A stretch of 64,000 nucleotides of DNA from Pseudomonas borbori (GTDB taxonomy: Bacteria; Pseudomonadota; Gammaproteobacteria; Pseudomonadales; Pseudomonadaceae), in NCBI RefSeq assembly GCF_900115555.1, contig NZ_FOWX01000005.1:62001-126000 (forward strand). Reading direction: 5' to 3'. The notes beneath the pieces were generated by a model. That model saw only the letters and a program-made list of their open reading frames with translations. It did not search any database and was not told the origin of the DNA. Made by a program: the position numbers and the translations under genes. Shown here piece after piece: positions 9,230 to 30,909 of this stretch. Numbering within the stretch: the first letter of the stretch is position 1; every line of letters begins with the position of its first letter.

Positions 9230-12200
9230 ATGTTTAAAGCCAGTCACGTCTTGCAGGACGAGTTCCTTAACCGGATCTCTGCCGCCAAGGCCGCCGATTT
9301 TTTCCCTGTCATCAGCGCCAACTACAGCGTTGACGAGGCAGCCTATCTCACTGAGCTCTTGCAGCTCGCCGATCCCGGTGAGGCCGGCATCGAGGCTATC
9401 CGCCGCGGTGCCCGTACCCTGATTCAGGATGTACGCAGCCGGGACAATGCCGTCGATACCCTCGACGCACTGCTGCGTCAGTACAGCCTCGATACCCAGG
9501 AAGGGCTGATGCTCATGTGCCTGGCCGAGGCTTTGCTGCGCGTGCCGGATGCCGCCACCGCCGACGCGCTGATCCGCGACAAACTGAGTGCCGCCGAGTG
9601 GGAACGCCACCTCGGCAAGAGCGACAACGTGCTGGTCAATTTCGCCGCCTGGGGCCTGGTGATGACCGGCAAGGTGGTCGACCCGGACGCCGCCGACGGT
9701 CGGCCGAAGAAGGTCATCGGCCGCCTGATCCAGCGTTCCGGCGAGCCGGTGATCCGCGCCGCGATGAACCAGGCGATGAAGCTGATGGGCAAGCAGTTCG
9801 TGCTCGGTCGCAATATCGCCGAGGCGCTGAAGAACGGTCGTTCCGAGCGCGAAAAAGGCTACACCTATTCCTTCGACATGCTTGGCGAGGCGGCCTTGAC
9901 TGCCGATGACGCCGAGAAGTACATGGCCGACTACCGCAAGGCCATCGATACCGTGGGGGCCGAGCCGCAGGTCGGTCCGGGGCCGAAGCCGTCGATCTCG
10001 ATCAAGCTGTCGGCCCTGCATCCGCGTTACGAAGTGGCCCAGCGCGAGCGCGTGCTGACCGAGCTGTTCGCCAATGTGCTGGAACTGGCGGTGCGCGCGC
10101 GCAAACTGGGCGTCGGCATCTCGGTGGACGCCGAGGAAGCCGACCGCCTGGAACTGTCGCTGGAGCTGTACGAGAAGCTGATGCGCGACCCGGCCCTCAA
10201 AGGCTGGGGCGAATTCGGCCTGGTGGTGCAGGCCTACTCCAAGCGCTGCCTGCCGGTGCTGGTGTGGCTCACCCTGTTGGGCAAGGAACTCGGCGAGAAG
10301 ATGCCGCTGCGCCTGGTCAAGGGCGCCTACTGGGACACCGAGATCAAGCAGTGCCAGGTCCAGGGCCTGGACGGCTACCCGGTGTTCACCCGCAAGGAAG
10401 GCACCGATACCTCCTACCTGACCTGCGCGCGCTTCCTGCTGTCGGAGTTCACCCGTGGGGTGATCTACCCGCAGTTCGCCAGCCACAACGCCCACACCGT
10501 CAGCTGCATCCTGGCGATGGCCGCCGAGCACCGGCAGCCGCGCGAGTTCGAGTTCCAGCGCCTGCACGGCATGGGCGACGCACTGTACGACACGGTGCTG
10601 GAAAAGCATGGCAAGACCGTGCGCATCTATGCCCCGGTCGGCGCGCACAAGGATCTGCTGCCCTACCTGGTCCGCCGCCTGCTGGAAAATGGCGCGAACT
10701 CCTCGTTCGTCCACCAGTTGGTCGACCCGAGCACGCCGATCGAGTCACTTCTCGATCATCCGGTGACGCAACTGCGCAAGTTCAAAACCCTCGCTAATGA
10801 CAAAATCCCCCTTCCGCCTGCTCTGTTCGGTACCGCGCGGAAAAACTCCCAAGGCCTCAACATGAACATCCAGCAGTCTCTGGCTGAGCTTGAGCTCGCC
10901 TATCAGCCGCACCTCAACCGTCAATGGCAGGCCGCACCGGTGATCAACGGGCAGACGCTGCCCGGCACCGCGCAGGACGTGCACTGCCCCTATGAGCTGA
11001 GCAAGCTGGTCGGCAGCGCCCAGTTCGCCAGCGCCGCCCAGGCCGCCCAGGCGCTGGACGTGCTCAGCGCTGCCTGGCCGCGCTGGAATGCCACGCCGGT
11101 CGACCAGCGCGCGAGCATCCTCGAGCGCCTGGCCGATCTGCTCGAGAGCAACCGCGGCGAGCTGATGGCGCTGTGCACCCTGGAAGCCGGCAAGTCCATG
11201 CAGGACGGCATCGACGAAGTGCGCGAGGCCGTGGATTTCTGCCGTTACTACGCCCAGCAGGCGCGCCTGCGCCTGGGCCGCGAGGAGCTGAAAGGCCCGA
11301 CCGGCGAGCGCAACGAACTGTTCCACGAAGGCCGTGGCATCTTCGTCTGCGTCAGCCCGTGGAACTTCCCCCTGGCCATCTACCTCGGCCAGATCGCCGC
11401 CGCCCTGGTCGCCGGTAACTGTGTGCTGGCCAAGCCGGCCGAGCAGACCAGCCTGATCGCCGCCCGTGCCCTGGAGCTGATGTTCGAGGCCGGCCTGCCG
11501 GCGGATGTGATCGCCTTCCTGCCCGGCGACGGCGCCACCCTCGGTGGCGTGTTCTGCCGTGATGCCCGGGTCGCCGGGGTGTGCTTCACCGGCTCCACCG
11601 ACACGGCGCGGATCATCAACCGCCAGTTGGCCGAGAAGGCCGGGCCGATCGCCGCGCTGATCGCCGAGACCGGCGGGCAGAACGCGATGATCGTCGACTC
11701 CACCGCGCTGCCCGAGCAGGTGGTCAAGGATGCCGTGCAATCGGCCTTCACCAGCGCCGGCCAGCGTTGCTCGGCGCTGCGCGTGCTCTATGTACAGGCC
11801 GACATCGCCGAACGGGTGCTGGATCTGCTCAAGGGCGCCATGGCCGAACTGAAGGTCGGCCCGACCCAGCTGCGCGCAAGCGACGTCGGCCCGGTGATCG
11901 ATGGCGAAGCCAAGGCGGGCCTGGACGCGCATATCGCCCAGCTCAAGGGCGAGGGCAAGCTGATCGCCGAAACGCCGCTGCCGGCTGGCCTGCACGGTCA
12001 CTTCGTCGCGCCGGTGGCCTTCGAGATCGGCGGCATCGCCGAGCTGAAGAAGGAAAACTTCGGCCCCATCCTGCATATCGTGCGTTACCAGGCCAGCGAA
12101 CTGGAGCAGGTGGTCGCCGCGATCAATGGCACCGGTTACGGCCTGACCCTCGGCGTGCATACCCGCAACGAGGAAACCGCCGAGCGCATCGAGGCCCTGG

Positions 12201-12409
12201 CGCGCGTCGGCAACCTCTACGTCAATCGCAACCAGATCGGCGCCGTGGTCGGCGTGCAGCCGTTCGGCGGTTGCGGCCTGTCCGGCACCGGACCGAAAGC
12301 CGGCGGCCCGAGCTACCTGCTGCGTTTCGTCAACGAACGTACCACCTCGGTCAACACCACGGCGGTGGGCGGCAACGCCTCGCTGCTGTCGCTGGTCGAC
12401 GAGGACTAA
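9230..12409 (+). CDS. putA: bifunctional proline dehydrogenase / P5C dehydrogenase
   Basis: Oxidises L-proline to glutamate in two steps at the inner membrane face. 1059 residues: an alpha-helical arm, the FAD proline dehydrogenase barrel (about 190-490; SISIKLSALHPRYE, VVQAYSKR, RLVKGAYWDTEIK, ASHNAHT) and the NAD aldehyde dehydrogenase domain (about 540-1040; PWNFPLAIYLGQIAAALVAG, catalytic Glu813 in ETGGQN and Cys847 in SAGQRCSALR). There is no ribbon-helix-helix DNA-binding domain, as in P. aeruginosa PutA, so it cannot be its own repressor. Start at ATG 9230 is preferred over 9221 because AAGAGG is then nine bases away and the protein begins MFKASHVLQ as in relatives. Confidence 0.97.
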   Translation: MFKASHVLQDEFLNRISAAKAADFFPVISANYSVDEAAYLTELLQLADPGEAGIEAIRRGARTLIQDVRSRDNAVDTLDALLRQYSLDTQEGLMLMCLAEALLRVPDAATADALIRDKLSAAEWERHLGKSDNVLVNFAAWGLVMTGKVVDPDAADGRPKKVIGRLIQRSGEPVIRAAMNQAMKLMGKQFVLGRNIAEALKNGRSEREKGYTYSFDMLGEAALTADDAEKYMADYRKAIDTVGAEPQVGPGPKPSISIKLSALHPRYEVAQRERVLTELFANVLELAVRARKLGVGISVDAEEADRLELSLELYEKLMRDPALKGWGEFGLVVQAYSKRCLPVLVWLTLLGKELGEKMPLRLVKGAYWDTEIKQCQVQGLDGYPVFTRKEGTDTSYLTCARFLLSEFTRGVIYPQFASHNAHTVSCILAMAAEHRQPREFEFQRLHGMGDALYDTVLEKHGKTVRIYAPVGAHKDLLPYLVRRLLENGANSSFVHQLVDPSTPIESLLDHPVTQLRKFKTLANDKIPLPPALFGTARKNSQGLNMNIQQSLAELELAYQPHLNRQWQAAPVINGQTLPGTAQDVHCPYELSKLVGSAQFASAAQAAQALDVLSAAWPRWNATPVDQRASILERLADLLESNRGELMALCTLEAGKSMQDGIDEVREAVDFCRYYAQQARLRLGREELKGPTGERNELFHEGRGIFVCVSPWNFPLAIYLGQIAAALVAGNCVLAKPAEQTSLIAARALELMFEAGLPADVIAFLPGDGATLGGVFCRDARVAGVCFTGSTDTARIINRQLAEKAGPIAALIAETGGQNAMIVDSTALPEQVVKDAVQSAFTSAGQRCSALRVLYVQADIAERVLDLLKGAMAELKVGPTQLRASDVGPVIDGEAKAGLDAHIAQLKGEGKLIAETPLPAGLHGHFVAPVAFEIGGIAELKKENFGPILHIVRYQASELEQVVAAINGTGYGLTLGVHTRNEETAERIEALARVGNLYVNRNQIGAVVGVQPFGGCGLSGTGPKAGGPSYLLRFVNERTTSVNTTAVGGNASLLSLVDED

Positions 12410-16390: not shown

Positions 16391-17320
16391 ATGAAAATTC
16401 ATCCACTGCCTCCGCTCAATAGCCTGGTGGCATTTGAAGCCGCTGCGCGCCATTTGAGCTTTACCCTGGCCGCCCAGGAACTGAACGTCACCCAGGGCGC
16501 GATCAGCCGTCAGGTGCGTTTGCTCGAGGATTACCTGGGCAAGACCCTGTTCGAGCGCACCACCCGGGCGATCAACCTGAGCCCGACCGGCAGTCAGTAC
16601 TACGATACCGTGCGCGACGCGCTCATGCAGGTGGCCCAGGCCACCGGCGAGATTCGCCACTGGCGTGGCGCTCAGCAGGTGACGGTGGCCACCAGCACGG
16701 CCATGGCCTCGTTGTGGCTGCTGCCCAAGGTGGCCGAGTTCCAGCGCGACAATGAAGAGATCGACCTGCGCATCATCGCCTATGACCACGTCAAGGAGTT
16801 CGCCCGCCTGGATTGTGACCTGGCGCTGTACTACTGCCGCACGCCGCCCAAGGATATTCAGGTCACGCCGCTGTTTTCCGAGGAGGTGTTTCCTGTGTGC
16901 AGCCCTGGCTACCTGGCCAAACACCCCGGGTTGCACGAGCCGCAGCAGCTGGCGGCCTGTACCTGGTTGTGGCTGGAGGATCCGCAGCGCGACTGGATCG
17001 GCTGGCCCGAGTGGTTTCAGCGGCTCGGGCTGAAGGCGCTGGAGCCCAAGCGGCGGATCAATATCAACAGCTACTCGATGCTGATCCAGTCGGCGCTGAG
17101 TGGCCAGGGCATCGCCCTGGGCTGGTCGAATCTGGTCGATAACCACCTGCAGAGCGGGGCGCTGGTGCGACCGGTCGAGACCGTGCTGAACACCGAGGCG
17201 CAGTTTTGCCTGCTCGAACCATACAGCCGCGGTCTCGGCCGGCAGAGCGTCCAGCGCTTTCGCAGCTGGTTGCTCGAGCAGTTGCCGGCGTCACTTGCCG
17301 AGGGGCAAGGCGAGGGGTGA
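16391..17320 (+). CDS. LysR-family regulator (GcvA-like), candidate regulator of the BCCT/Rieske locus
   Basis: 309 residues. The N-terminal winged helix-turn-helix is clear (LNSLVAFEAAARHLSFTLAA then ELNVTQGAISRQVRLLEDYLG), followed by the periplasmic-binding-like effector domain. The PPLNSLVAFEAAARHLSF start is typical of the GcvA/AmpR subgroup. Start at ATG 16391; no strong Shine-Dalgarno is visible. The gene is convergent with a BCCT transporter gene, and two T-N11-A boxes with identical arms (19576-19602, 28440-28466) lie in front of the BCCT genes, so I infer that this protein controls the locus. In known DMSP loci the regulator DddR is also a LysR protein. Confidence 0.9.
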   Translation: MKIHPLPPLNSLVAFEAAARHLSFTLAAQELNVTQGAISRQVRLLEDYLGKTLFERTTRAINLSPTGSQYYDTVRDALMQVAQATGEIRHWRGAQQVTVATSTAMASLWLLPKVAEFQRDNEEIDLRIIAYDHVKEFARLDCDLALYYCRTPPKDIQVTPLFSEEVFPVCSPGYLAKHPGLHEPQQLAACTWLWLEDPQRDWIGWPEWFQRLGLKALEPKRRININSYSMLIQSALSGQGIALGWSNLVDNHLQSGALVRPVETVLNTEAQFCLLEPYSRGLGRQSVQRFRSWLLEQLPASLAEGQGEG

Positions 17321-17399
17321 GAGATTGCCCGCTGTCTTCGACGGAGCGCTGTCGCGCAGAAAACCGTAGGTATTCGTGTCTATGGGCTATTGGGCACCC

Positions 17400-17482
17400 G
17401 TAGGCGCGGCGGGGACGCCCAGTCCCATGGCCGCGAAAGGCCGCAAGCCCGTCAGAATATTCGCGGCTAAAGCCCCTCCCAC
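17400..17482. repeat. intergenic hairpin repeat, family B
   Basis: Starts GTAGGCGCGGCGGGGACGCC, continues CAGTCCCATGGCCGCGAAA, and ends CCCCTCCCAC. Related to 17502-17567 and 8938-9008. Confidence 0.6.
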
Positions 17483-17501
17483 AAGAACACCGCCGTACCC
17501 C

Positions 17502-17567
17502 GTAGGAGCGGGGGGGACGCCCAGTTCCATGCCCGCGAAATCCATCGCGGCCATGGGCCGCTCCTAC
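17502..17567. repeat. intergenic hairpin repeat, family B (REP-like)
   Basis: GTAGGAGCGG at the left end pairs with CCGCTCCTAC at the right end; the middle carries GGGACGCCCAGTTCCATGCC. This is the cleanest palindromic copy. Confidence 0.7.
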
Positions 17568-17597
17568 AGAAAACTGCGGTGTCCGCTAACGCTGAAA

Positions 17598-17636
17598 CGA
17601 CCGCTGCCGCGGGCTTGTGGCCGGCGGCAGCGGTCG
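17598..17636 (-). terminator. terminator of the first BCCT gene
   Basis: Perfect 13-bp stem CGACCGCTGCCGC / GCGGCAGCGGTCG with a 13-base loop; on the minus strand it is followed by TTTC only. It lies 33 bases after the BCCT stop. Confidence 0.65.
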
Positions 17637-17668
17637 CTGGAGCGGGTGCGCTGCGTGCAGCGCGGTCG

Positions 17669-19372
17669 TTAGCAGGCCTTGCGTGCGTGTAACGCCAGTG
17701 GCGAGGCCCCGCCCAGGACAGGGACAGGCTGGTTGGCCGTCTCGTCTTCGGCGTGTTCCCGGGTTGCATAGTGGCTGCCCGGCAGCGGCGTGGGCAGGCC
17801 GCTGAAACCTTCCTGACGCAGGCAGCGCATCAGGCTGTAGCTCATCAGCAGGATGAACACGGCGATCGGCAAGCCCGCGGCGATCGAGGCCATCTGGATG
17901 GTCTTCAGGCCGCCGGCATACAGCAGGCCCATGGCGATAAAGGCCTGCAGCACGCCCCAGAGCACGCGAATACCTTGCGGCGGTTCCGGGTGTCCGGCGG
18001 CGCACAGGGTACAGAGCACCAGGGTGCCGGAGTCGGCTGAGGTGATGAAGTAGGTCGCCAGCATCAGGCAAACCAGCACGCTGAGCAGTTGCCCCAGTAG
18101 GCCGCCGTCGATCTTCTTCAGCAGGGTGAACATCGCCGAGGTGGTTTCCGCCTTGGTCGCGGTCAGCACGTCGCCGCCCTGGAACACCGCCGCCTCGCCA
18201 ACCAGTTGGCCGCTCTCGACCTGCTGCTGATGCAGTGCGCGGTCGTCCTGTTCGGCTTTCAGGGCCGAGCCGCCGAGTACCGACATCCACACGATGGTCA
18301 CCAGGGTCGGCACCAGCAGGGTGCCGGCGACCAGTTCGCGGATGGTGCGGCCACGGGAAACCCGGGCGATGAACAGGCCGACGAAGGGCCCCCAGGTCAT
18401 CCACCAGGGCCAGTAGAAGGCGGTCCACCAGTTCTGCCAGCCGCCGTCTTTCTGGGTGTCGCTCCACACGCTCAGGCCGACGATGTTCTGCAGATAATCA
18501 CCGCTGCTTTCCAGCATCAGGTTGAGCAGGTAGCGGGTCGGGCCGAGCAACAGGACCACGCCGACCAGCAGGATCGACAGCAGCATGTTCCATTCCGACA
18601 AGCGACGGATGCCGCGCGAAACCCCGGACATCACCGAGAGAATGGCGCAACCGCTGATCAGCGCAATCATCAGGGCCTGCACGCCGAAATTGATCGGCAG
18701 GCCGAACACCTGATTGAAGCCGGTGTTGATCTGGGTGACGCCGAGGCCCAGCGACTGGGATACGCCAAAGGCAGTGATGGCCACGGCGAGAATATCCACG
18801 GCGTGGCCGATGGGGCCGTAGATGCGCTTGCCGATCAGGGGGTAGAGGATCGAGCGCATGCTCAGGGGCAGGCCCTTGCGATAGGCGAAGTAGGCCAGGG
18901 CCAGGCCGACCATGGTGAAGATCGCCCAGGGGTGCAGGCCCCAGTGGAACAGGGTGAGGCGCATGGCCGCGGTGGCCGCCTCGTCGCTCAGGGCTTCGGC
19001 GAACGGGTTGCCGGCGTAATGCCACATGGGTTCGGCCACCGACCAGAAAATCAGGCCGATACCCATGCCGCCGCTGAACAGCATGGCGATCCATGAGCTG
19101 AAGGCAAACTCCGGGCGCTCGTCGTCGCGGCCCAGGCGGATATGGCCGAAGCGGCTGACCATCAGGTACAGCAGCAGGCCGAGCACGCCGCTGACCAGGC
19201 TCAGGTAGAACCACTTGAAGTTGTCGAGGATGAAATCCGAGGTGTGCTGGAAGAAGGCGCCAGCCTGTTCGGCGAGTACTGCGCAAAGCACTACGAAGCC
19301 GATGACCAGGAGCTTGGAGGCCACGGTTACGGTGGGGTTTAGGCCCTTGAACAGGCCTGCCTGTGCACGCAT
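17669..19372 (-). CDS. BCCT-family betaine/carnitine/choline-type transporter 1
   Basis: 567 residues, twelve membrane helices, sodium- or proton-coupled uptake of onium osmolytes. Family marks: the conserved signature GMGIGLIFWSVAEPMWHY, aromatic-rich helix 8 WQNWWTAFYWPWWMTWGPF with RVSRGRTIREL after it, and SADSGTLVL in helix 10. The Trp-rich helix 8 forms the cation-pi box that holds the methylated nitrogen or sulfur. I start at ATG 19370-19372, where GGGGA is well placed; the longer frame adds 64 residues without membrane or family features. Divergent from the Rieske operon, with a shared 423-base regulatory region. Confidence 0.93.
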   Translation of the reverse strand: MRAQAGLFKGLNPTVTVASKLLVIGFVVLCAVLAEQAGAFFQHTSDFILDNFKWFYLSLVSGVLGLLLYLMVSRFGHIRLGRDDERPEFAFSSWIAMLFSGGMGIGLIFWSVAEPMWHYAGNPFAEALSDEAATAAMRLTLFHWGLHPWAIFTMVGLALAYFAYRKGLPLSMRSILYPLIGKRIYGPIGHAVDILAVAITAFGVSQSLGLGVTQINTGFNQVFGLPINFGVQALMIALISGCAILSVMSGVSRGIRRLSEWNMLLSILLVGVVLLLGPTRYLLNLMLESSGDYLQNIVGLSVWSDTQKDGGWQNWWTAFYWPWWMTWGPFVGLFIARVSRGRTIRELVAGTLLVPTLVTIVWMSVLGGSALKAEQDDRALHQQQVESGQLVGEAAVFQGGDVLTATKAETTSAMFTLLKKIDGGLLGQLLSVLVCLMLATYFITSADSGTLVLCTLCAAGHPEPPQGIRVLWGVLQAFIAMGLLYAGGLKTIQMASIAAGLPIAVFILLMSYSLMRCLRQEGFSGLPTPLPGSHYATREHAEDETANQPVPVLGGASPLALHARKAC

Positions 19373-19795
19373 TGCAATGTCCCCTTTTATTGTTGGTAAG
19401 GGTTTTTGTGGTGCAAGCCGGGGGCGTGGGGGGGACAGCTGCAGACTCGGCCAATCCGGCGAAGGCAGTCGCTCAAGGCGCGGGTCAGCAGGTGGAACCC
19501 TCAGGCTCGGTTGCCCTGTTTCAGGGGACAAAGTGACGGTTCGGACGATTGCCCAACAAACCATTTATTTTCATTGATTGATGAGTTTTAAACATTAATC
19601 AGCTGCGCACTTCGGCCAATGGGCTGCTGTTGGTCTGAGCGGGCGGCGATTGTTTATTCATGAGAAAAAGTCATTAACGAGTCTGTAATTATCGTTTGTC
19701 GAACAATCCCCCGGTTCTCGAAACTCGCTGCCAACGGACCTTGGCCAGTGTGCCTGCCGATCATCAATTACCGTGCCTTGCAGGGGAGAACAACA
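19373..19795. promoter_or_regulatory. divergent regulatory region between BCCT-1 and the Rieske operon
   Basis: AT-rich in its middle (about 19550-19690) against a GC-rich surrounding. Contains the LysR-type operator at 19576-19602 roughly halfway between both start codons. No other gene is credible here. Confidence 0.7.
19576..19602. promoter_or_regulatory. candidate LysR operator, copy 1
   Basis: GATTGATGA-N9-ATTAATCAG. Inside it, GATTGAT-N11-ATTAATC is an inverted repeat (6 of 7 positions) with the T-N11-A form of LysR boxes. Both 9-base arms and the spacing are identical to the copy at 28440-28466; the nine middle bases differ. Confidence 0.75.
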
Positions 19796-20986
19796 ATGAA
19801 CAATTCCATCTCTCAACGTATTCCTGTGCAACAACTGGAACGCGTACTCAATCCGATCGACCAGGCCACCGGGCTTGGCAACGAGTTCTACACCGAGCAG
19901 CGTTACTTTGAATTGGAGCGCGATCAGGTCATGGGCAAGACCTGGGCCTGCGTCGGTTTCGCCAGCGACCTGGTGAACAATGGCTCGGTCAAGCCGGTCG
20001 ACTTCATGGGCCTGCCGCTGCTGCTGATGCGCAACCGCGAGGGCCTGGTGCAGGTGTTCCATAACGTCTGCAGCCACCGCGGCATGAAGCTGGTGCAGGA
20101 AGAGGGTGAAGTGCAGGGCGTGATCCGCTGCCCCTACCATTCCTGGACCTATGACCTCAACGGCGGTCTCAAGGGCACCCCGCACGTCGGCGGTATCGAC
20201 AAGCACAAGGATGAGCGTTTCGCCTGCGAGAAGCACGGCCTGAAAGCCCTGCGCAGTGCGATCTGGATGGACATGCTGTTCGTCAACCTGTCCGGCGACG
20301 CCCAACCGCTGGAGGAGATGCTCGCGCCACTGACCGCGCGCTGGAGCCAGTTCCTCGGCGCCGACGGCATGGAGCTGCTGCGCCGCCGCCCGGGCTTTGA
20401 TTCCACCACCCTGGATATCAACTGCAACTGGAAGCTGGCGGTGGAGAACTACTGCGAGGCCTACCACCTGCCGTGGGTGCACCCGAGCCTGAATACCTAT
20501 TCGCGCCTGGAAGACCACTACAACATCCTGTTCGACGAGCGCTTCGCCGGCCAGGGCAGCTACGCCTACAACCTGTCGGACGTGGCCGGTACCCACCTGC
20601 CGAAGTTCCCCAGCTGGCCGCAGGATCGTCTGCGCAACGCCGAATACGTGGCCTTCTTCCCCAACGTGCTGCTCGGCATCCAGGCCGATCACGCCTTCGC
20701 CATGCAGCTGGAGCCGGTCGCGCCGGGCCGCACCATCGAGCACCTGCGCCTGTTCTATGTCGGCGACGAGGCCCTGGGCGACGAGTACGCCGCCTGCCGC
20801 AACGCCATTCTGGAGTCCTGGAAAGTGGTGTTCGCCGAGGACATCAGTTCGGTCGAAGGCATGCAGAAAGGCCGTCACTCGCCGGGTTACAGCGGCGGCG
20901 CCTTCTCCCCGGAGATGGACATCCCGACCCACTTCTTCCACCAGTGGGCGGCCCGTCAGCTGCTCGAAACCACGCCGTCCGCCTGA
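19796..20986 (+). CDS. Rieske non-heme iron oxygenase, alpha subunit
   Basis: 396 residues. The Rieske [2Fe-2S] site is Cys92-His94 (CSH) with Cys112 and His115 (CPYH). The catalytic mononuclear iron site is seen in NWKLAVENYCEAYHLPWVHP, with Glu221 at the bridging position and ligands His224 and His229; the third carboxylate is probably the Asp in FAEDISS. The architecture is that of GbcA, CntA and stachydrine-demethylase type enzymes that hydroxylate or demethylate quaternary ammonium compounds. Start ATG 19796 follows AGGGGAGAA. First gene of a seven-gene operon. Unlike gbcAB or cntAB, no ferredoxin-NADPH reductase follows; a rubredoxin-reductase fusion is encoded instead. Confidence 0.92.
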   Translation: MNNSISQRIPVQQLERVLNPIDQATGLGNEFYTEQRYFELERDQVMGKTWACVGFASDLVNNGSVKPVDFMGLPLLLMRNREGLVQVFHNVCSHRGMKLVQEEGEVQGVIRCPYHSWTYDLNGGLKGTPHVGGIDKHKDERFACEKHGLKALRSAIWMDMLFVNLSGDAQPLEEMLAPLTARWSQFLGADGMELLRRRPGFDSTTLDINCNWKLAVENYCEAYHLPWVHPSLNTYSRLEDHYNILFDERFAGQGSYAYNLSDVAGTHLPKFPSWPQDRLRNAEYVAFFPNVLLGIQADHAFAMQLEPVAPGRTIEHLRLFYVGDEALGDEYAACRNAILESWKVVFAEDISSVEGMQKGRHSPGYSGGAFSPEMDIPTHFFHQWAARQLLETTPSA

Positions 20987-20996
20987 GGAAGTTGCC

Positions 20997-22442
20997 ATGT
21001 ATCCGATTGCCCCCCACTGGCTGAATTACATCGACGGCCAATGGTGTGACAGCGCCCAGCGCCTGACAGTAAACAACCCCGGCAGCGCCGAGCCGTTGGC
21101 GACCATCGCCCAGGCCGACGTCGCCGATGCCGAGCGTGCCCTGCAGGCGGCGCGGCGCTGCGCCGATGGCGGCGCGCTGAGCAGTGTGCGCCCGGCGCAG
21201 CGGGTCAGCTGGCTGCTGCGTATCGCCGCCGAGATTCGTGCGGTCGCCGACGAAGGCGCCTGGGTCTTGTGCCAGGAGAACGGCAAGAGCCTCAACGACG
21301 CCCGCGACGAGTTCACCGAGGCGGCGCGCTACTTCGAGTACTACGCCGGCATGGCCGACAAGATCGAAGGCACCTCGATCCCGCTGGGCGACGGCTACAT
21401 GGACTTCACGGTCTACGATCCGATGGGCGTGTCGGCGCAGATCGTGCCCTGGAACTTCCCGGTGTCGATCTGCGCCCGTTCGCTGGCGCCGGCCCTGGCC
21501 GCCGGCAATGCGGTGGTGATCAAGTCGCCGGAGCTGTCGCCGCTGGGCATGTGCGTGCTGGTGCGCGCCATCGCCCAGGCCGGCCTGCCGAATGGCGCGG
21601 TCAACCTGATCTGCGGCCGTGGCCGTGAGGTCGGTGCGCACCTGGTGAGCAGCGCCAAGGTCGATCAGATCGTCTTCACCGGTTCTGTGCCGACCGGCCA
21701 GACCATCCTCCGTGACGCCGCCGAGCACGCCATTCCCAGCGTCATGGAGCTGGGCGGCAAGTCGGCGGCGATCGCCTTCGCCGATGCCGACCGCGAGCAG
21801 CTGCTGGCCAGCGTCAAGGGCGGCATCTTCTTCAATGCCGGCCAGGTCTGCTCGGCCATGTCGCGGCTGCTGGTGCAGCGCGAGATCTATGAAGAAATCG
21901 TCCAATCCGTGGTCGCGCTGGCCGAAGGCCTCAGCGTCGGCCTCGGCCAGGACAACCCGGACCTCACGCCGGTGGTCAGCGCCGGGCAACTGGCCAGCAT
22001 CGAAACCCTGTGTCGGCGCGCAATCGATGAGGGTGCGGTAGCGGCCACCGGTGGTGAGGCCTTCAGCGACCGCGCCGGGCACTTCATGCGCCCGACCGTG
22101 TTCCGCGATGTCAGCCCCGAGATGTGCATTGCCCAGGAGGAAGTGTTCGGCCCGGTGCTGGCGATCATTCCCTTCGACAGCGAAGAGGAGGCCATCGCCA
22201 TCGCCAACGGCACCGAGTTCGGCCTGGTTGCCGGCGTGTTCACCCAGGACATCAGCCGCGCCATGCGCTGCGCGCGACGCCTCAAGGCCGGCCAGGTGTT
22301 CGTCAACGAGTGGTATGCCGGCGGCATCGAGACGCCGTTCGGCGGCGTCGGCCTGTCCGGCTTCGGCCGCGAGAAGGGTCAGGAAGCGCTGTACAGCTAC
22401 GTACGTACCAAGAACGTCGCCATTCGCGTGGCGGGGGAGTAA
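20997..22442 (+). CDS. NAD(P)-dependent aldehyde dehydrogenase
   Basis: 481 residues, ALDH superfamily, close in motifs to betaine-aldehyde and related dehydrogenases. Seen: VPWNFPVSICARSLAPALAA in the cofactor-binding region, VFTGSVPTGQ, the general base Glu in MELGGKS, the nucleophile Cys285 in NAGQVCSAMS, and EEVFGPV. It should oxidise an aldehyde formed in the pathway to a carboxylate in the cytosol. It starts ten bases after the Rieske stop, with GAGGAAG overlapping that stop, so the two are translationally close. The substrate cannot be told from sequence. Confidence 0.93.
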   Translation: MYPIAPHWLNYIDGQWCDSAQRLTVNNPGSAEPLATIAQADVADAERALQAARRCADGGALSSVRPAQRVSWLLRIAAEIRAVADEGAWVLCQENGKSLNDARDEFTEAARYFEYYAGMADKIEGTSIPLGDGYMDFTVYDPMGVSAQIVPWNFPVSICARSLAPALAAGNAVVIKSPELSPLGMCVLVRAIAQAGLPNGAVNLICGRGREVGAHLVSSAKVDQIVFTGSVPTGQTILRDAAEHAIPSVMELGGKSAAIAFADADREQLLASVKGGIFFNAGQVCSAMSRLLVQREIYEEIVQSVVALAEGLSVGLGQDNPDLTPVVSAGQLASIETLCRRAIDEGAVAATGGEAFSDRAGHFMRPTVFRDVSPEMCIAQEEVFGPVLAIIPFDSEEEAIAIANGTEFGLVAGVFTQDISRAMRCARRLKAGQVFVNEWYAGGIETPFGGVGLSGFGREKGQEALYSYVRTKNVAIRVAGE

Positions 22443-22447
22443 GCGAC

Positions 22448-23845
22448 ATGTTCAAGACCTGGCTCTGTGTGGTCTGCGGTTTGATCTACGACGAGGCCCT
22501 CGGTTGGCCGGACGACGGCATCAAAGCCGGCACCCGCTGGGAGGACGTACCGGCGGACTGGAAATGCCCGGAGTGCAAAGTCGGCAAGGACGATTTCGAG
22601 ATGCTCGACATCAGCCCGGTGGTCGCCGCCGCGGTGGCCAGCACGCCACTGCCGCTGCCGAAAGCCGCACAGCCGGCAGTCGCTGAGGTGCGCCAGCCGA
22701 TCGTCATCATCGGCAGCGGCTATGCCGGCTACGGCCTGGCTCAGGCCCTGCGCCGCGCCGACCCGCAGGTCGAGATCCGCGTACTGACTCAGGAGTCCGG
22801 TCACCTCTATTCCAAACCGGCGCTGTCGATCGGCCTGGCCCAGGGCAAAAGCGCCCAGGCCCTGGCCGGCGAGTCGGCCCTGGCGATCGAGCAGCGTCTG
22901 AACATCCGCGTCTATCCCCATTGCCGGGTCGAACGCATCGACGCCGCGGCCCGGCGCCTCTCTACCAACATTGGCGAGATGGAGTACGGCCAGCTGGTCC
23001 TGGCCAGCGGCGCCGCGCCCATCCGTCTGCCGATCGAGGGCGACACGGCGGCGCTGCTCAGCGTCAACAACCTGCACGACTATCGCAGCTTCCGCGAGCG
23101 TCTGGTCGGCGTGCGCCGGGTGGCGATCCTCGGTGACGGCCTGATCGGCTGCGAATTCGCCAACGACCTGGCGGCCAGCGGCTTCGCGGTCAGCGTCATC
23201 GGTCTCGGCCAGTGGCCGATGGAACGCCTGTTGCCGGTCGAGGCCGGCCGCCAGTTACAGGCGGCGCTCGGTGACCTGGGGGTGAGCTGGCACCTGCAGA
23301 ACACCCTGCAGCGTATCGAATCGGTGGAGCAGGGCTATCGCCTGACCCTCGCCGACGGTCAGCAACTGGACGCCGACTTGGTGCTCTCCGCCGTCGGCCT
23401 GCGCCCCAACCTGGCGCTGGCCGAGTCCGCCGGGGTCGCGGTGGGACGCGGTATCCAGGTGGACGCCCAACTGCAGTGCTCGCAACCGAATATCTATGCC
23501 CTGGGCGACTGCATCGAGATCGACGGCCAGTTGCTGCCTTACCTGGCGCCGATCAACCAGGGCATCGCCGCCCTGAGCAAGACCCTGCTCGGCCAGCCGA
23601 CGGCGGTCAGTTATCCGCTGATGCCGGTGACGGTGAAAACCCCGGCCGCGCCGCTGTGCCTGTTGCCGCCGGCCATCGGCATAACCGGCGAATGGCGCTG
23701 CACGGCTACCGACGATGGCCTGAGCGCCGGCTTCTACGATGCCGAGGGGGCGCTGCACGGCTTCGTCCTGCTCGGTCGCCAAGCACAAGTGCAGCGCAAC
23801 AGCTGGCTGCAATCCTGTCAGAACGCACAACGGGCAGTGGCCTGA
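22448..23845 (+). CDS. rubredoxin / rubredoxin reductase fusion
   Basis: 465 residues. Residues 1-55 are a rubredoxin: iron ligands Cys7 and Cys10 (CVVC) and Cys40 and Cys43 (CPEC), with the usual GWPDDGIKAGTRWEDVP between them. After a linker (about 56-78) comes an FAD/NAD(P)H reductase of the AlkT/RubB type: PIVIIGSGYAGYGLAQAL for FAD, VAILGDGLIGCEFANDL for NAD(P)H and NIYALGDCIEIDGQ for the FAD tail. The polypeptide can therefore pass electrons from NAD(P)H through FAD to rubredoxin by itself. It begins five bases after the aldehyde dehydrogenase stop. I infer that it reduces the Rieske oxygenase, which would be an unusual partner. Confidence 0.9.
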   Translation: MFKTWLCVVCGLIYDEALGWPDDGIKAGTRWEDVPADWKCPECKVGKDDFEMLDISPVVAAAVASTPLPLPKAAQPAVAEVRQPIVIIGSGYAGYGLAQALRRADPQVEIRVLTQESGHLYSKPALSIGLAQGKSAQALAGESALAIEQRLNIRVYPHCRVERIDAAARRLSTNIGEMEYGQLVLASGAAPIRLPIEGDTAALLSVNNLHDYRSFRERLVGVRRVAILGDGLIGCEFANDLAASGFAVSVIGLGQWPMERLLPVEAGRQLQAALGDLGVSWHLQNTLQRIESVEQGYRLTLADGQQLDADLVLSAVGLRPNLALAESAGVAVGRGIQVDAQLQCSQPNIYALGDCIEIDGQLLPYLAPINQGIAALSKTLLGQPTAVSYPLMPVTVKTPAAPLCLLPPAIGITGEWRCTATDDGLSAGFYDAEGALHGFVLLGRQAQVQRNSWLQSCQNAQRAVA

Positions 23846-23855
23846 GGGCTGTACC

Positions 23856-25184
23856 ATGAAAAAGACCATCAATCTGCCCTACGACGACGCCAGCTGCGGC
23901 TGGTATGCCGCGCTGCCCGCCGCCAAGCCCGCGACCCGCCTGCAGGGCGAACAGCGCGCCGACTTCGCGGTGATCGGCGCCGGTTTCGCCGGCCTGGCCG
24001 CGGCCCGCCGGCTGGCCGAGCATCATCCGCAGGCGCGCATCCTGCTGGTCGACGCCCAGCGCGTCGGCTACGGCGCCTCCGGGCGCAATTCCGGCTTCGT
24101 CATCGATCTGCCGCACAAGTTCGCCCTCGAGCACCCGGACCCGGCGCACAAGCAGCGCCTGCTCGGCCTCAATCGCGCCGCCATCGCCCAGTTGCAGGGG
24201 CTGATTCAGCGCCACGGCATCGATTGCCAGTGGTCGCATGCCGGCAAGTACCAGGGCGCCGTCGGCCCGCGTGGCCTGGCCTATCTGGAGCATTTCGAGC
24301 ACCTGCTGAAGAACCTCGGCGAGCCCTTTCGCTGGGTCGAACGCGAGGAATTGGCCAAGGTGGTCGGCAGCCAGCACTACAGCCGGGCGATCTACACCCC
24401 GGGCTGCTACCTGATGCAACCGGCGGCGCTGGTCACCGGCCTGGGGGCTTCGCTGCCGGGCAACGTCGAGCTACTCGAGGAGTCGCCGGTCCAGCGCCTG
24501 GAGCGTGACGGCCAGGGCGGCTGGATCCTGCACGGCAACAATGGCCGCATCCGCACCCCGCAGCTGCTGCTCGGTACCAGCATCTTCACCCAGGAATTCG
24601 GTTTCCTGCGCAACCGCCTGCTGCCGGTGATGACCTTCGCCAGCTGGACCCGGCCGCTGACCGACAGTGAGCTGCAGGTATACGGCGGCGAGCTGGACTG
24701 GGGCCTGACCCCGGCCGACCACGCCGGCACCACGGTGCGCATGACCCAGGATCGCCGCCTGATGATCCGCAACACCTACAAACACGTGCCCAAGTACGGC
24801 CAGAGCACCAGCGATGCCATGCGCGCCAGCGTGCGCGAGGATCACCGCAAGGCCTTCCTGGCGCGCTTCCCGCAACTGGCCAACGTCCCGTTCAGCCATA
24901 CCTGGGGCGGCGTTTACGCCATCTCGCGCAACTTCACCAACTTCTTCGGCGAGCTGGAGCAGGGCGTCCATGCCTCGGCCTGCGACAACGGCGTCGGCGC
25001 GGCCTGGGGCACCATCTCCGGTACGTTGCTGGCCGACCTGGCGGTGGGCGCGGATTCGGCGCAGTTGCGCGACATCCAGGCGGTCACCGGCATGCCGTCG
25101 TTGAATCCGCCGGAACCCTTGCTCGGCCTCGGCGTGCGTTCGCGCATTCGCCTGGCGGCGTGGAACAGTCGGAGCGAGCTATGA
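23856..25184 (+). CDS. DAO-family FAD-dependent oxidoreductase (PuuB/GlpO-like fold)
   Basis: 442 residues with the dinucleotide-binding motif ADFAVIGAGFAGLAAARRLA near residue 37, the DAO motif GYGASGRNSGFV and a C-terminal FAD contact region (GGVYAISRNFTNFFGEL, NGVGAAWGTISG). The overall form is that of gamma-glutamylputrescine oxidase and sarcosine/dimethylglycine-oxidising flavoproteins, which oxidise secondary or tertiary amines. In this operon it could take the demethylated product of the Rieske step. It starts ten bases after the rubredoxin gene and overlaps the next gene by four bases (ATGA). Confidence 0.88.
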   Translation: MKKTINLPYDDASCGWYAALPAAKPATRLQGEQRADFAVIGAGFAGLAAARRLAEHHPQARILLVDAQRVGYGASGRNSGFVIDLPHKFALEHPDPAHKQRLLGLNRAAIAQLQGLIQRHGIDCQWSHAGKYQGAVGPRGLAYLEHFEHLLKNLGEPFRWVEREELAKVVGSQHYSRAIYTPGCYLMQPAALVTGLGASLPGNVELLEESPVQRLERDGQGGWILHGNNGRIRTPQLLLGTSIFTQEFGFLRNRLLPVMTFASWTRPLTDSELQVYGGELDWGLTPADHAGTTVRMTQDRRLMIRNTYKHVPKYGQSTSDAMRASVREDHRKAFLARFPQLANVPFSHTWGGVYAISRNFTNFFGELEQGVHASACDNGVGAAWGTISGTLLADLAVGADSAQLRDIQAVTGMPSLNPPEPLLGLGVRSRIRLAAWNSRSEL

Positions 25185-25552
25185 GTCAGGTCGTTTCCGG
25201 GAAAGGCCCGGTGCTGCTGGTCGATCACCATGACCTGGACTTCATGCCCCGAGGCGGCCCGCCCGGCGCCGCCTATGTGGCCCGCGCGATCAGCAACGAA
25301 GTGTCGCCGAATATCGGCATCGGTTTCGCCCGCTGGGAAGGCGCCGAGGTCAACTGGACCCTGCTGTATGACGAGGTGATCTTCGTCATCGAAGGCTGCT
25401 TCGAACTACGGGCCAACGGTGAGCTGTACCGGGTCGAGCCGGGTCAGTTGCTGTGGATTCCCGAGGGCACCGAGCTGGTCTACGGCGGTCATGCGCTGTT
25501 CGGTTATGTGGTTCATCCGGGCGACTGGAAGCAACGTCACGGCCTGGCCTGA
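25181..25552 (+). CDS. EutQ-like cupin without metal-ligand histidines
   Basis: 123 residues forming one cupin barrel: VNWTLLYDEVIFVIEGCFEL is the first cupin motif and VEPGQLLWIPEGTELVY the second. The sequence resembles the C-terminal domain of ethanolamine-utilisation protein EutQ. In metal-dependent cupins such as the DMSP lyases DddQ, DddW and DddK the first motif carries HxH and Glu; here the positions are Tyr-Asp, so metal catalysis is doubtful. It may bind a small carboxylate or assist another enzyme. ATG overlaps the preceding stop. Confidence 0.8.
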   Translation: MSQVVSGKGPVLLVDHHDLDFMPRGGPPGAAYVARAISNEVSPNIGIGFARWEGAEVNWTLLYDEVIFVIEGCFELRANGELYRVEPGQLLWIPEGTELVYGGHALFGYVVHPGDWKQRHGLA

Positions 25553-25618
25553 TCGTTTTGCCGTCGCATTCCCAACCCGGGAGCGGCGGTTTTGTTCATT
25601 CTGGCCAAGGAGCCAAGC

Positions 25619-26917
25619 ATGTTGGGACTGACCCGCACCTTCGGCGCCCTGTACCTGGCCAGCCTGCTGATGCAGCTGGGCTCGACGCTGCTGATGACCT
25701 ACCTGGCGTTGCGCCTGACGGCCGATGGCGTCGCCGAGTTCTGGGGGGGCGCGCTGATGGCCGCCAACGCCCTGGGCATGGTGGCCGGTGGCCGGGTAGG
25801 GCGGGTGCTGATCGAACGGGTCGGGCATATCCGCACCTACGTCGCCTGCGCCGGGGTAATTGCCGCCGCCGTGCTGGCCCACGAATTCAGCAGTGCCTTG
25901 CCGCTCTGGCTATTCCTGCGCGCGCTGGTCGGCCTGGCCATGATGTGCCAGCTGATGGTGCTGGAGAGCTGGCTCAACGACCGCGCCCGGAGCGACCAGC
26001 GCGGCAAGGTGCTGGGTATCTACATGGTCGCGGTCTATGTCGGCATGATGCTCGGCCAGCTGGCCCTGAGTCTCAATGGCGACCTGGGTATCCACGCCTT
26101 GCTCGGCGTGGCCATGGCCTTCGCCCTGTGCCTGGTGCCGGTGGCACTGACCGGCAGCATGCACCCGGCCGCGCTACGTCCGGCCCCCATCGATATTCGC
26201 CTGTTCCTGCGGCGGGTGCCGCAGTCGCTGGTGACCATTCTGATCTCGGGCATGATCAACGGCGGCTTCTATGGTCTGGCCCCGATCTACGCCAGCCAGC
26301 AGGGCCTGGGTACAGTCGAGATCGGCCAGTTCATGGCACTGGCCATCGCCGCCGGTCTGCTCGCCCAGTTACCGCTGGGCTGGCTGTCCGACCGTCTGCC
26401 GCGGGCCAGCCTGATCCGCGCTGTGGCCGTACTGTTGCTCCTCGCCTGCCTGCCACTGGCGTTCTACCAGGACTTGTCGTTCGGCGCCTTGCTGTTGTTC
26501 GGCGCCGGCATCGGTTTCCTGCAGTTCTGCCTATATCCGCTGGGCGTGGCCCTGGCCAACGACAATATCGAAGCCGAGCTGCGGGTGTCGCTGGCTGGCT
26601 TGTTGCTGGTGGCATTCGGCATCGGCGCCTGCATCGGCCCGTTGCTCGCCGGTGCGCTGATGGAGCAGTTCGGCGCCTCGAACCTGTACGCCTTCTTCGC
26701 CGTCTGCGCCGCGCTGCTGGCCCTCGCGGTCGGCCAGGGCAAGGTCAGCGGCGCGCACTTGCAGGAGGATGCACCGTTGCATCACCAGGCCACGCCAGTC
26801 GGCCTGGCCAGCGCCACCCTGGCGGCGGCGGTGGAGCCTGCCGAGTTGGCGGTACCAGCCGCCGGCAGCACTCCCCCCGCTGAGCCTGCCGCCGCCTGTG
26901 AGTCGTCGGCGAGCTGA
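25619..26917 (+). CDS. MFS transporter (YcaD-like)
   Basis: 432 residues with twelve predicted helices, a major-facilitator motif A variant GGRVGRVLIERVGHIR after helix 2 and a second repeat PLGWLSDRLPRASLIR after helix 8. The sequence is closest in feel to the YcaD/UMF2 subgroup, whose substrates are unknown. The C-terminal ~50 residues are Ala/Pro-rich and cytoplasmic. AAGGAG precedes ATG 25619 by six bases. Placed within the oxidative operon, it may export a product or import an additional substrate; no direct evidence. Confidence 0.88.
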   Translation: MLGLTRTFGALYLASLLMQLGSTLLMTYLALRLTADGVAEFWGGALMAANALGMVAGGRVGRVLIERVGHIRTYVACAGVIAAAVLAHEFSSALPLWLFLRALVGLAMMCQLMVLESWLNDRARSDQRGKVLGIYMVAVYVGMMLGQLALSLNGDLGIHALLGVAMAFALCLVPVALTGSMHPAALRPAPIDIRLFLRRVPQSLVTILISGMINGGFYGLAPIYASQQGLGTVEIGQFMALAIAAGLLAQLPLGWLSDRLPRASLIRAVAVLLLLACLPLAFYQDLSFGALLLFGAGIGFLQFCLYPLGVALANDNIEAELRVSLAGLLLVAFGIGACIGPLLAGALMEQFGASNLYAFFAVCAALLALAVGQGKVSGAHLQEDAPLHHQATPVGLASATLAAAVEPAELAVPAAGSTPPAEPAAACESSAS

Positions 26918-26963: not shown

Positions 26964-28214
26964 ATGTTCGACAACAAGAATAAGTACCTGGTCGATGAGA
27001 ACGCCACGCCGGCGCTGCGCAACCCGGTCGACATCCAGACCCACCGGGCGGCGCGGGCGTATCGCCTGCAGCGGGTGCGCCAGCGACTGCTGGCCGAGGA
27101 CTGCGCAGCGATCCTGCTCTACGACCCGGTGAACATCCGCTACGCCACCGACACCTCGAACATGCAGGTGTGGACCCTGCACAACTTCGCCCGCTACGCC
27201 CTGGTATTCGCCAGCGGGCCGGTGATCCTGTTCGAGTTCCACAACTGCGAACACCTGCACCAAGGCAACAAACTGCTCGACGAGATCCGCCCGGCGATCA
27301 ACTGGAGTTATTTCGGCGCGGGTTCGCGCATCTCGGAGAAGGCCCGCGCCTGGGCCGGCGAACTAGCCGACCTGGTGCAGCATTACGCCGGTGGCCAGGC
27401 CCGCCTGGCGGTGGACAAGGCCGATCTGCAAGGATTCGACTTGCTGCGTGAGCATGGCCTGAGCCTGGTCGAGGGCCACAGCCTGATGGAGGAGGCGCGC
27501 AAGATCAAATCCACTGATGAGCTGGAATTGATGCGCTGGACCATTCAGGTTTGCGAGCGCGGTATCCAGCGCATGCACGACGAGCTGCGCCCCGGCATGA
27601 GCGAGAACCAGCTGTGGGCCTGGCTGCACTACGAGAATATCCGCCACGGCGGCGAGTGGATCGAAACCCGCCTGCTGGCTTCCGGGCCGCGCACCAACCC
27701 CTGGATGCAGGAATCCAGCGAGCGGGTGATGCTGGAGGGCGAGATCGTCAGCTTCGACACCGACCTGATCGGCCCCTATGGCTACTGCGCGGATATCTCC
27801 CGCGCCTGGACCGTTGGCCACGTCGCGCCCACGGCCGAGCAGCGCCGACTCTATGGGCTGGCGCACGAACAGGTGCAGCACAACATGGCGTTGCTCAAAC
27901 CGGGGCTGAGTTACCGCGAATTCAGCGAGCGGGCCTGGGATATCCCGGCGCCGTTCTACCCGAACCGTTATTGCTGCGTGCTGCACGGCGTGGGTCTGGC
28001 CGATGAGTTTCCGGCCGTGGCCCACCGTGGTGAAGATTGGCGCGGCAGTGGTTACGACGGATTGTTCGAGGAGAACATGGTGGTCTGTGTGGAAAGTTAT
28101 ATCGGCGCACGGGGCGGTAGCGAGGGCGTCAAACTGGAACAGCAAGTATTGATCACTGCCGATGGCTGCCAGGCGTTATCGACGTTTCCCTGGCAAGCCG
28201 ATTGGCTGGCTTGA
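26964..28214 (+). CDS. dddP: M24-family protein with all DddP (DMSP lyase) active-site residues
   Basis: 416 residues, creatinase/aminopeptidase-P fold. From memory of DddP of Ruegeria and Roseovarius, the six metal ligands line up with almost constant offset: Asp265, Asp267, Asp277, His341, Glu377 and Glu392 here against Asp295, Asp297, Asp307, His371, Glu406 and Glu421 there. The proposed catalytic Asp377 (here Asp347 in HGVGLAD) and Tyr366 (here Tyr336) are also kept. The motif GGEWIETRLLASGPRTNPW is nearly identical to DddP. DddP cleaves DMSP to acrylate and dimethyl sulfide. It is shorter at the N-terminus than the ~446-residue marine enzymes. True substrate not proven; ectoine hydrolase DoeA, another M24 enzyme, is less similar. 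Confidence 0.8.
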   Translation: MFDNKNKYLVDENATPALRNPVDIQTHRAARAYRLQRVRQRLLAEDCAAILLYDPVNIRYATDTSNMQVWTLHNFARYALVFASGPVILFEFHNCEHLHQGNKLLDEIRPAINWSYFGAGSRISEKARAWAGELADLVQHYAGGQARLAVDKADLQGFDLLREHGLSLVEGHSLMEEARKIKSTDELELMRWTIQVCERGIQRMHDELRPGMSENQLWAWLHYENIRHGGEWIETRLLASGPRTNPWMQESSERVMLEGEIVSFDTDLIGPYGYCADISRAWTVGHVAPTAEQRRLYGLAHEQVQHNMALLKPGLSYREFSERAWDIPAPFYPNRYCCVLHGVGLADEFPAVAHRGEDWRGSGYDGLFEENMVVCVESYIGARGGSEGVKLEQQVLITADGCQALSTFPWQADWLA

Positions 28215-28613: not shown

Positions 28614-30248
<1,635 letters not shown>

Positions 30249-30304: not shown

Positions 30305-30345
30305 ATGACGGCAGCCCAGGCCGTGACTGGGCTGGAGAATTGTGC

Positions 30346-30909
30346 ATGACAAGCGATAGCTACAACCTGGACAACTTTATCGACGATCTGCGCCGTATCG
30401 TCGCCTCCGCCGCCGATGAAACCAACCTGCTGGCCCAGGTGGCACCGCTGGCCCGGCGAGTCGTTGCCGAGCGAAATTGGCTGCGAGCGGACATGTACGA
30501 CGCCGACCCGGCGCTGGGCTTCGGTACCACGCTGTTGCATGTCGAGGCCGACCAGTCGCTGTTCGTGGTGGTGGACAGCTGGCTGCCAGGACGTGGCGTG
30601 CCGCCCCATGACCACGATACCTGGGCGGTGGTGGTGGGCGTCGAGGGCAGCGAGCGCAATATCTTCTGGCAGCGCCTGGACGATGCCACGCGCCCCGGTT
30701 ATGCCGAGCTGCAGCGCATGGGCGAGCAGTGCATCGCGCCGGGGCAGGCGTTGGCCATGCCCAGCGGCAGCATCCACAGCCTGATCAACGAAACGCCGCA
30801 CACCAGCCTGTCGTTTCATGTCTATGGTCGCCATCTCAACCATACCGCCCGTCGCCAGTTCGACCCCGAACACCACCGCGAACTGCCGTTCATCATCGAC
30901 GCTCGCTGA
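30346..30909 (+). CDS. cysteine-dioxygenase-type thiol dioxygenase
   Basis: 187 residues, cupin of the CDO type I / 3-mercaptopropionate dioxygenase family. Iron ligands His88 and His90 (PPHDHDTW) and His144 (SGSIHSL); the Ser-His-Tyr relay is Ser156-His158-Tyr160 (LSFHVYG), as in CDO and in P. aeruginosa MDO. Such enzymes add O2 to a thiol to give a sulfinate. Which thiol cannot be told, but 3-mercaptopropionate is possible, and that compound is also a known product of DMSP demethylation. ATG 30346 has GGAG eight bases upstream. A terminator separates it from BCCT-2, so it needs its own promoter or read-through. Confidence 0.8.
   Translation: MTSDSYNLDNFIDDLRRIVASAADETNLLAQVAPLARRVVAERNWLRADMYDADPALGFGTTLLHVEADQSLFVVVDSWLPGRGVPPHDHDTWAVVVGVEGSERNIFWQRLDDATRPGYAELQRMGEQCIAPGQALAMPSGSIHSLINETPHTSLSFHVYGRHLNHTARRQFDPEHHRELPFIIDAR

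Follow-up and report, generated by a model that had tools for sequence, protein, structure and literature searches.

Our analysis of a 64,000-nucleotide stretch of Pseudomonas borbori DNA (hereafter, the window) found an M24-family protein that resembles DddP in predicted fold and active-site residues and lies outside the DddP clade. We suggest, with moderate confidence, that it is a dinuclear-metal DddP-like enzyme serving the breakdown of an N-methylated betaine. The dddP gene is a marker for DMS production in environmental surveys. An earlier note on this DNA had offered two readings of the protein, either as a DMSP lyase found in new surroundings or as a relative of DddP whose substrate is some other osmolyte. 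We prefer the latter, which the operon and the family context support; the former was weakened because the protein scores below the DddP cut-off and falls outside the DddP clade.

The M24 gene and its neighbours in the window are as follows.

16391..17320, plus strand: LysR-type regulator (83% to the LysR gene preceding the Pseudomonas MPC6 operon; start codon picked by inspection)
17669..19564, minus strand: BCCT-family transporter, divergent from the operon (PF02028, 590.9 bits)
19793..20986, plus strand: Rieske oxygenase (nearest solved structure carnitine monooxygenase, E 1.6e-32)
20994..22442, plus strand: aldehyde dehydrogenase (best NCBIfam model betaine-aldehyde dehydrogenase, 406.4 of 668.6 bits, below cut-off)
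22445..23845, plus strand: rubredoxin fused to a rubredoxin-reductase-like flavoprotein (PF00301, PF07992, PF18113)
23853..25184, plus strand: FAD-dependent amine oxidase of the DAO family (PF01266, 168.1 bits)
25181..25552, plus strand: small EutQ-like cupin (PF06249, 58.7 bits)
25592..26917, plus strand: MFS transporter, adjoining the M24 gene
26964..28214, plus strand: M24 DddP-like protein (416 aa, start ATG at 26964)
28614..30248, plus strand: BCCT-family transporter (PF02028, 562.9 bits; TIGR00842, 434.1 bits against a cut-off of 407.55)
30340..30909, plus strand: thiol-dioxygenase-like cupin (3-mercaptopropionate dioxygenase, E 6e-20; mercaptosuccinate dioxygenase, E 9e-18)

From the Rieske gene to the M24 gene, neighbouring genes lie at most 46 bp apart and in one case overlap by 4 bp, and about 400 bp precede the second BCCT gene. 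The TIGR00842 cut-off was passed by both BCCT transporters (the divergent one at 479.7). Pfam and NCBIfam matches agreed with the earlier note in placing M24 beside a Rieske oxygenase and a flavoprotein and away from acrylate genes: none of the 10 genes scanned from 17.7 to 30.9 kb was a known acrylate or DMSP gene. The rubredoxin-reductase fusion is presumed to be the electron donor of the Rieske oxygenase. Promoter and terminator scans gave fewer matches than in shuffles.

The M24 open reading frame is real, as had been observed before, and close relatives align with it from residue 1 onward. The protein is the sole member of its family in its own genome at E 1e-10. It is about 40% identical to the DddP enzymes of known structure, RdDddP (4b28; E 5e-99, residues 23–411) and RlDddP (4rzy; E 3e-98, residues 30–412), and shares their M24 pita-bread fold. 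The alignment bore out the proposed six metal ligands, with Asp265, Asp267, Asp277, His341, Glu377 and Glu392 of M24 matching Asp295, Asp297, Asp307, His371, Glu406 and Glu421 of DddP; the offset is almost constant, 30 residues throughout but 29 for the last two ligands. Tyr336 and Asp347 likewise correspond to the proposed catalytic pair Tyr366 and Asp377. The motif GGEWIETRLLASGPRTNPW, described as near-identical, is the same in 4rzy and has a single residue changed in 4b28. Residues of DddP are numbered as in PMC4108388, which is the chain position in 4b28 minus 23. The AlphaFold model of M24 (pLDDT 88.8) is DddP-like in its predicted fold: the four DddP entries were its top structural matches at Z 46 (for 4rzy, Z 46.1, 399 aligned residues and rmsd 2.0), and the next fold followed at Z 35 and below.

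We examined the conservation of these residues in 75 related M24 proteins. Asp265, Asp267, Asp277, His341 and Glu392 were present in 75/75, Glu377 in 74/75, Tyr336 in 73/75 and Asp347 in 62/75, and most of the motif residues were invariant in a set of 34 rows. In sequence, the DddP ligands, the Tyr/Asp pair and the motif are thus a signature of the wider family and not of DddP alone; being common to that family, they do not single out DddP. In ten of the 75 rows (L182–L184, L186, L188–L191, L211 and L212), Gly replaces the proposed catalytic Asp, which suggests another reaction in these proteins.

The score and the phylogeny pointed the same way. Against the NCBIfam model of DddP (NF043017), M24 reached 411.9 bits, below the cut-off of 600 (411.1 in the genome search). 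For the tree, 213 M24 proteins were extracted, with three stretches skipped (one had an internal stop and the other two were too short); merging of identical proteins left 170, and dropping rows shorter than 380 aa or at least 78% identical to a kept row left 75, to which three outgroup rows were added. RdDddP and RlDddP were represented by the Loktanella protein, 81% identical to RdDddP. The DddP clade received full support and held 18 rows: Loktanella, Paracoccus, Oceanisphaera, two Pseudomonas proteins (L109 and L116), a relative at the level of the class (G494) and twelve rows of one family (f55), presumably that of the roseobacters. DddP of the Oceanimonas/Oceanisphaera type is active. 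M24 was placed elsewhere, with relatives from Oceanospirillaceae and Pseudomonas MPC6, and a second tree, built quickly after four long-branch rows and two outgroup rows had been removed, still kept the two groups apart. The approximately unbiased (AU) test rejected the placement of M24 with the DddP clade (p 2e-18), as it did for the nine-row clade of M24 (p 1.4e-5); the 18 rows taken as DddP were defined from the tree itself, though the question had been set beforehand in the earlier note. Between the nine-row and 18-row clades, 30 positions showed fixed differences. Phylogenetic placement, one of the two points on which the earlier note would have refuted its reading, therefore went against membership in the clade of the Loktanella, Paracoccus and Oceanisphaera enzymes. 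RdDddP and RlDddP differ from M24 accordingly, in that M24 belongs to a separate clade, scores below the cut-off and lies in a Rieske/amine-oxidase operon. The root of the tree is unsure because the outgroup branches are very long.

The fold also raises the question of hydrolysis, since prolidases, creatinase and ectoine hydrolase share it with the M24 model (Z about 33–35). M24 could be a hydrolase acting on a conjugate of betaine or proline, in which it would split an amide, peptide or ester bond and thereby supply the demethylation pathway, and it is in keeping with this that some relatives lie in proline- or hydroxyproline-type clusters and that relatives are annotated as ‘Xaa-Pro peptidase family protein’. 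However, the columns near residues 248 and 348, which we take to be those of the M24-peptidase histidines, hold Met248 and Glu348 in the window protein, which thus lacks both histidines of an Xaa-Pro peptidase. His was absent at 248 in 74/75 family members and Glu was present at 348 in 75/75, whereas among three M24 paralogues of the same genome position 248 was His in all and position 348 was His in two and gapped in the third. The ectoine hydrolase (DoeA) models scored far below their cut-offs (NF038259, 38.1 of 575 bits; TIGR02993, 21.7 of 613 bits), which also argues against ectoine as the substrate. DoeA and the Xaa-Pro peptidases have the fold in common with M24 at 16–23% identity and differ from it in these His columns. 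We therefore regard a hydrolase as doubtful.

Carnitine monooxygenase, the stachydrine-demethylase type and glycine betaine monooxygenase are Rieske oxygenases that act on onium carboxylates. In the window Rieske protein the cluster motif is complete and the Tyr-His iron ligand is preceded by a Glu; the same Glu was found in the GbcA of the same genome, in stachydrine-type Rieske proteins and in the aligned carnitine enzyme. The window protein is 27–30% identical to the other Rieske proteins compared. The window system differs from the others in its reductase, a rubredoxin-reductase fusion where theirs is annotated ‘hybrid-cluster NAD(P)-dependent oxidoreductase’. Glycine betaine was considered as the operon's substrate; the window protein scored 131.4 of 670 bits with the GbcA model (NF058607), below cut-off, and a separate glycine betaine monooxygenase GbcA is encoded elsewhere in the genome (814.6 bits). 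The separate GbcA argues against glycine betaine, and the window Rieske oxygenase is probably for another substrate.

Conservation of the operon was estimated from eight partners of M24 (LysR, Rieske, aldehyde dehydrogenase, rubredoxin-reductase fusion, FAD amine oxidase, cupin, MFS and BCCT). Where M24 was at least 77% identical, all eight were present in 13/13 Pseudomonas loci (L008–L019 and L046) and in 10/11 of a second Pseudomonas set that shares some genomes with the first. Pseudomonas loci with M24 at 66–68% identity (L033, L271 and L272) had different neighbours. Most Oceanospirillaceae copies and one Halomonas copy kept much of the set, in a divergent arrangement. Our survey of 398 genomes of the genus found family members in 74 when the threshold was E 1e-60, and an M24 of 77% or more in 12, the window's own genome included.

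M24 and the Rieske gene were apart in five genomes. Four of them have no Rieske gene near M24 (L023, L024, L026 and L029) and still carry the same Rieske subfamily elsewhere (4/4, 59–64% identity); at three of these distant loci it is accompanied by aldehyde dehydrogenase, rubredoxin reductase, BCCT and LysR genes, and at the fourth Rieske, aldehyde dehydrogenase and LysR genes adjoin SoxA/SoxB-like genes. The fifth, Pseudomonas G137, keeps MFS–M24–BCCT and has no Rieske protein of this subfamily in its genome (best 28–29%), so M24 can do without it. In both marine relatives checked (L030 and L023), an EamA-type transporter gene follows M24. In two Marinobacterium loci (L023 and L026, about 10001–12210), M24 and then a transporter-like gene (EamA/2A78 type in L023) stand among housekeeping genes. 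Judging by the adjoining transporter genes, something in the M24 reaction may be exported.

Next to the operon itself, the company of the wider family supports a role in osmolyte breakdown. We searched about 9–10 kb on each side of M24 genes by tblastn with markers of our own choosing, whose function names come from annotation or recall; 40 stretches from genomes of the same sets served as controls, and these were arbitrary stretches, not other catabolic clusters. In a phylum-wide draw, 41/398 genomes had a family member and 17 had one over the DddP cut-off. A Rieske gene was found near M24 in 47/80 loci (the best 80 of 434, a biased set nearest to the window M24), 13/20 of a further locus set, 3/22 below-cut-off loci of the phylum draw, 6/20 Pseudomonas paralogues, 0/18 over-cut-off places of the phylum draw and 0/40 controls. 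Any marker, that is Rieske, N-methylproline-demethylase-like, hydroxyproline/P5C or glycine-betaine-demethylation, was found in 58/80, 18/20, 11/22, 14/20, 1/18 and 1/40, respectively. The counts for the 80 loci are lower bounds because many of these loci end at contig edges. Taking the 22 below-cut-off loci and the 20 Pseudomonas paralogues together, betaine or hydroxyproline markers lay within about 9 kb in 25/42 other family members versus 1/40 controls. The link of the family to betaines is not general, as the counts at the over-cut-off places indicate.

Particular clusters gave a similar picture. Rhizobium clusters combine M24 with a Rieske protein close to 3vca and 4qup (E about 1e-102), which we take to be of the stachydrine-demethylase type, with 4-hydroxyproline epimerase and with betaine ABC carriers. 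Five Pseudomonas M24 genes (L193–L197) adjoin a flavin oxidoreductase 74–76% identical to that of a rhizobial stachydrine-like cluster, and some alphaproteobacterial copies are found with MttB-like, Bmt, dimethylglycine-dehydrogenase-like or sarcosine oxidase genes. We also considered M24 as a plain 4-hydroxyproline epimerase; this is unlikely, because some clusters already hold a 4-hydroxyproline epimerase (L123) or MLE-family genes beside M24, and epimerisation of another betaine is possible. Cupins distantly like the DMSP-lyase cupins were observed near DddP-like M24 genes in Rhizobium and Burkholderia-group loci (L005 at 17324–20372, L039, L055, L056, L061, L064, L065, L067, L074, L076, L078 and L079); the one in L005 matched 5cu1 at E 4e-6 and DddQ at E 2e-4.

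Proteins near or over the DddP cut-off were also considered. The DddP of Loktanella salsilacus (870 bits; L119, 7857–15010) stands beside a Rieske oxygenase, a 2Fe-2S reductase and a stachydrine-type NADH:flavin oxidoreductase. This and an MLE-type neighbour in Paracoccus yeei suggested that roseobacter-type DddP shares the Rieske/stachydrine association; the 18 over-cut-off places, with their one marker and no Rieske gene within about 9 kb, did not uphold it. Among 40 Pseudomonas loci (L193–L212 and L260–L279), 11 had a paralogue with at least 60% identity to Oceanisphaera DddP, and at 9 of these 11 a Rieske gene, hydroxyproline markers, a betaine ATPase or DAO/ALDH genes were nearby. Two such paralogues that were scanned (L204 and L276, about 8860–10140) scored 608.8 and 607.9 bits; they are of the same family as the window M24 at 47–48% identity and, unlike it, pass the DddP cut-off, and that of L276 is the tree row L109 inside the DddP clade. 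Both adjoin hydroxyproline and betaine-transport genes and come from a different draw than the 18 places. Proteins that would be annotated as DMSP lyases can thus sit in hydroxyproline-betaine-like clusters.

Could M24 nevertheless be a true, physiologically relevant DMSP lyase that yields DMS and acrylate, with the oxidative genes using acrylate or serving other osmolytes? The DddP-like active site and the structural matches (Z 46 vs 35) speak for it, and so does the company of sulfur genes in some genomes. A DddD-like gene, which is how we read the MPC6 ‘CoA transferase’, was found in 7/12 carriers of M24 vs 1/20 non-carriers tried (Fisher p 0.0016, kinship ignored), and some Pseudomonas loci also carry a thiol-dioxygenase-like gene. 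In Pseudomonas MPC6, a dddD-dddT-dddB-dddC-like cluster adjoins the M24 operon on an Antarctic plasmid (L003, 16434–25245; L254; L253, 13010–39001); its genes, which we read as ddd genes, encode a CoA transferase, a BCCT transporter, an iron alcohol dehydrogenase and a methylmalonate-semialdehyde dehydrogenase. The plasmid also carries hydroxyproline-type genes and a second M24 gene roughly 18–50 kb away. These thiol-dioxygenase-like and DddD-like genes hint at sulfur osmolytes. However, the score, the AU test and the 30 fixed differences set M24 apart from DddP, the scanned genes include none for acrylate, the best DddD match in the window's own genome is partial (1.8e-22), and the amine oxidase and Rieske oxygenase would be superfluous for DMSP lysis. 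A stachydrine-type oxidoreductase was found in 7/12 carriers vs 4/20 non-carriers (p 0.053, kinship ignored), and its co-occurrence and that of DddD-like genes may be a mark of osmolyte-rich habitats. DMSP lyase activity of M24 is possible but unsupported, and a physiological DMSP lyase is unlikely. Breakdown of another sulfonium or thiol compound (S-methylmethionine, for example), in which the thiol dioxygenase would act last, is very improbable: the thiol-dioxygenase-like gene follows the BCCT gene in the window and was found in 5/13 and 5/11 loci of the two Pseudomonas sets with M24 of at least 77% identity, but not in the remaining Pseudomonas loci or in L020–L030 (0/11, some contigs short), and the amine-oxidase and sarcosine-oxidase-like partners point to nitrogen.

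For the reading that we prefer, breakdown of an N-methylated betaine, we infer the order of steps, the M24 reaction and the class of substrate from the gene content. A BCCT carrier would import the betaine, and the Rieske oxygenase, with electrons from the rubredoxin-reductase fusion, would oxidise it next to the onium nitrogen to give an aldehyde, which the aldehyde dehydrogenase would convert to an acid. The FAD amine oxidase would strip the remaining N-methyl groups, in a few relatives perhaps replaced by sarcosine-oxidase-type genes. The two metals of M24 would hold the substrate carboxylate while Asp347, with assistance from Tyr336, abstracts the alpha proton; the outcome would be elimination of the onium group or epimerisation, not peptide hydrolysis. 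Such alpha-proton chemistry on an onium carboxylate is favoured because the Asp and Tyr are kept and the His columns are Met248 and Glu348. Passages of PMC4108388 propose for DddP that the metals hold the carboxylate and that Asp377 or Tyr366 takes the alpha proton, and give for RnDddP a Km of 13.8 mM on DMSP; according to a passage of PMC8163506, the efficiency of DddP on DMSP is lower than that of DddX. This low efficiency leaves room for another native substrate. Among the titles and abstract openings searched, none was found on this operon or on a betaine reading of DddP, which is no proof of absence; the passages found in PMC12478193 and PMC8079746 are silent on M24.

A broader view can be put forward only tentatively: DddP may have arisen from a large family that mainly serves nitrogen betaines, with DMSP cleavage recruited later or present as a side activity. 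The window M24 would then be an undescribed kind of betaine lyase or epimerase, and the osmolytes of the family would be proline, hydroxyproline and other N-methylated compounds. Because its root is unsure, the tree leaves the direction of this descent undecided.

The residues used to recognise dddP are common to a much wider family. If M24 serves betaines, the recognition features of the marine DddP would be too broad, and the enzyme would represent a new step in osmolyte catabolism. Were betaines the native substrates of proteins such as the over-cut-off Pseudomonas paralogues, counting dddP beyond the roseobacter-type group would overestimate DMS production. If the family of DddP did originate with betaines, many soil-bacterial “dddP” genes would be betaine genes.
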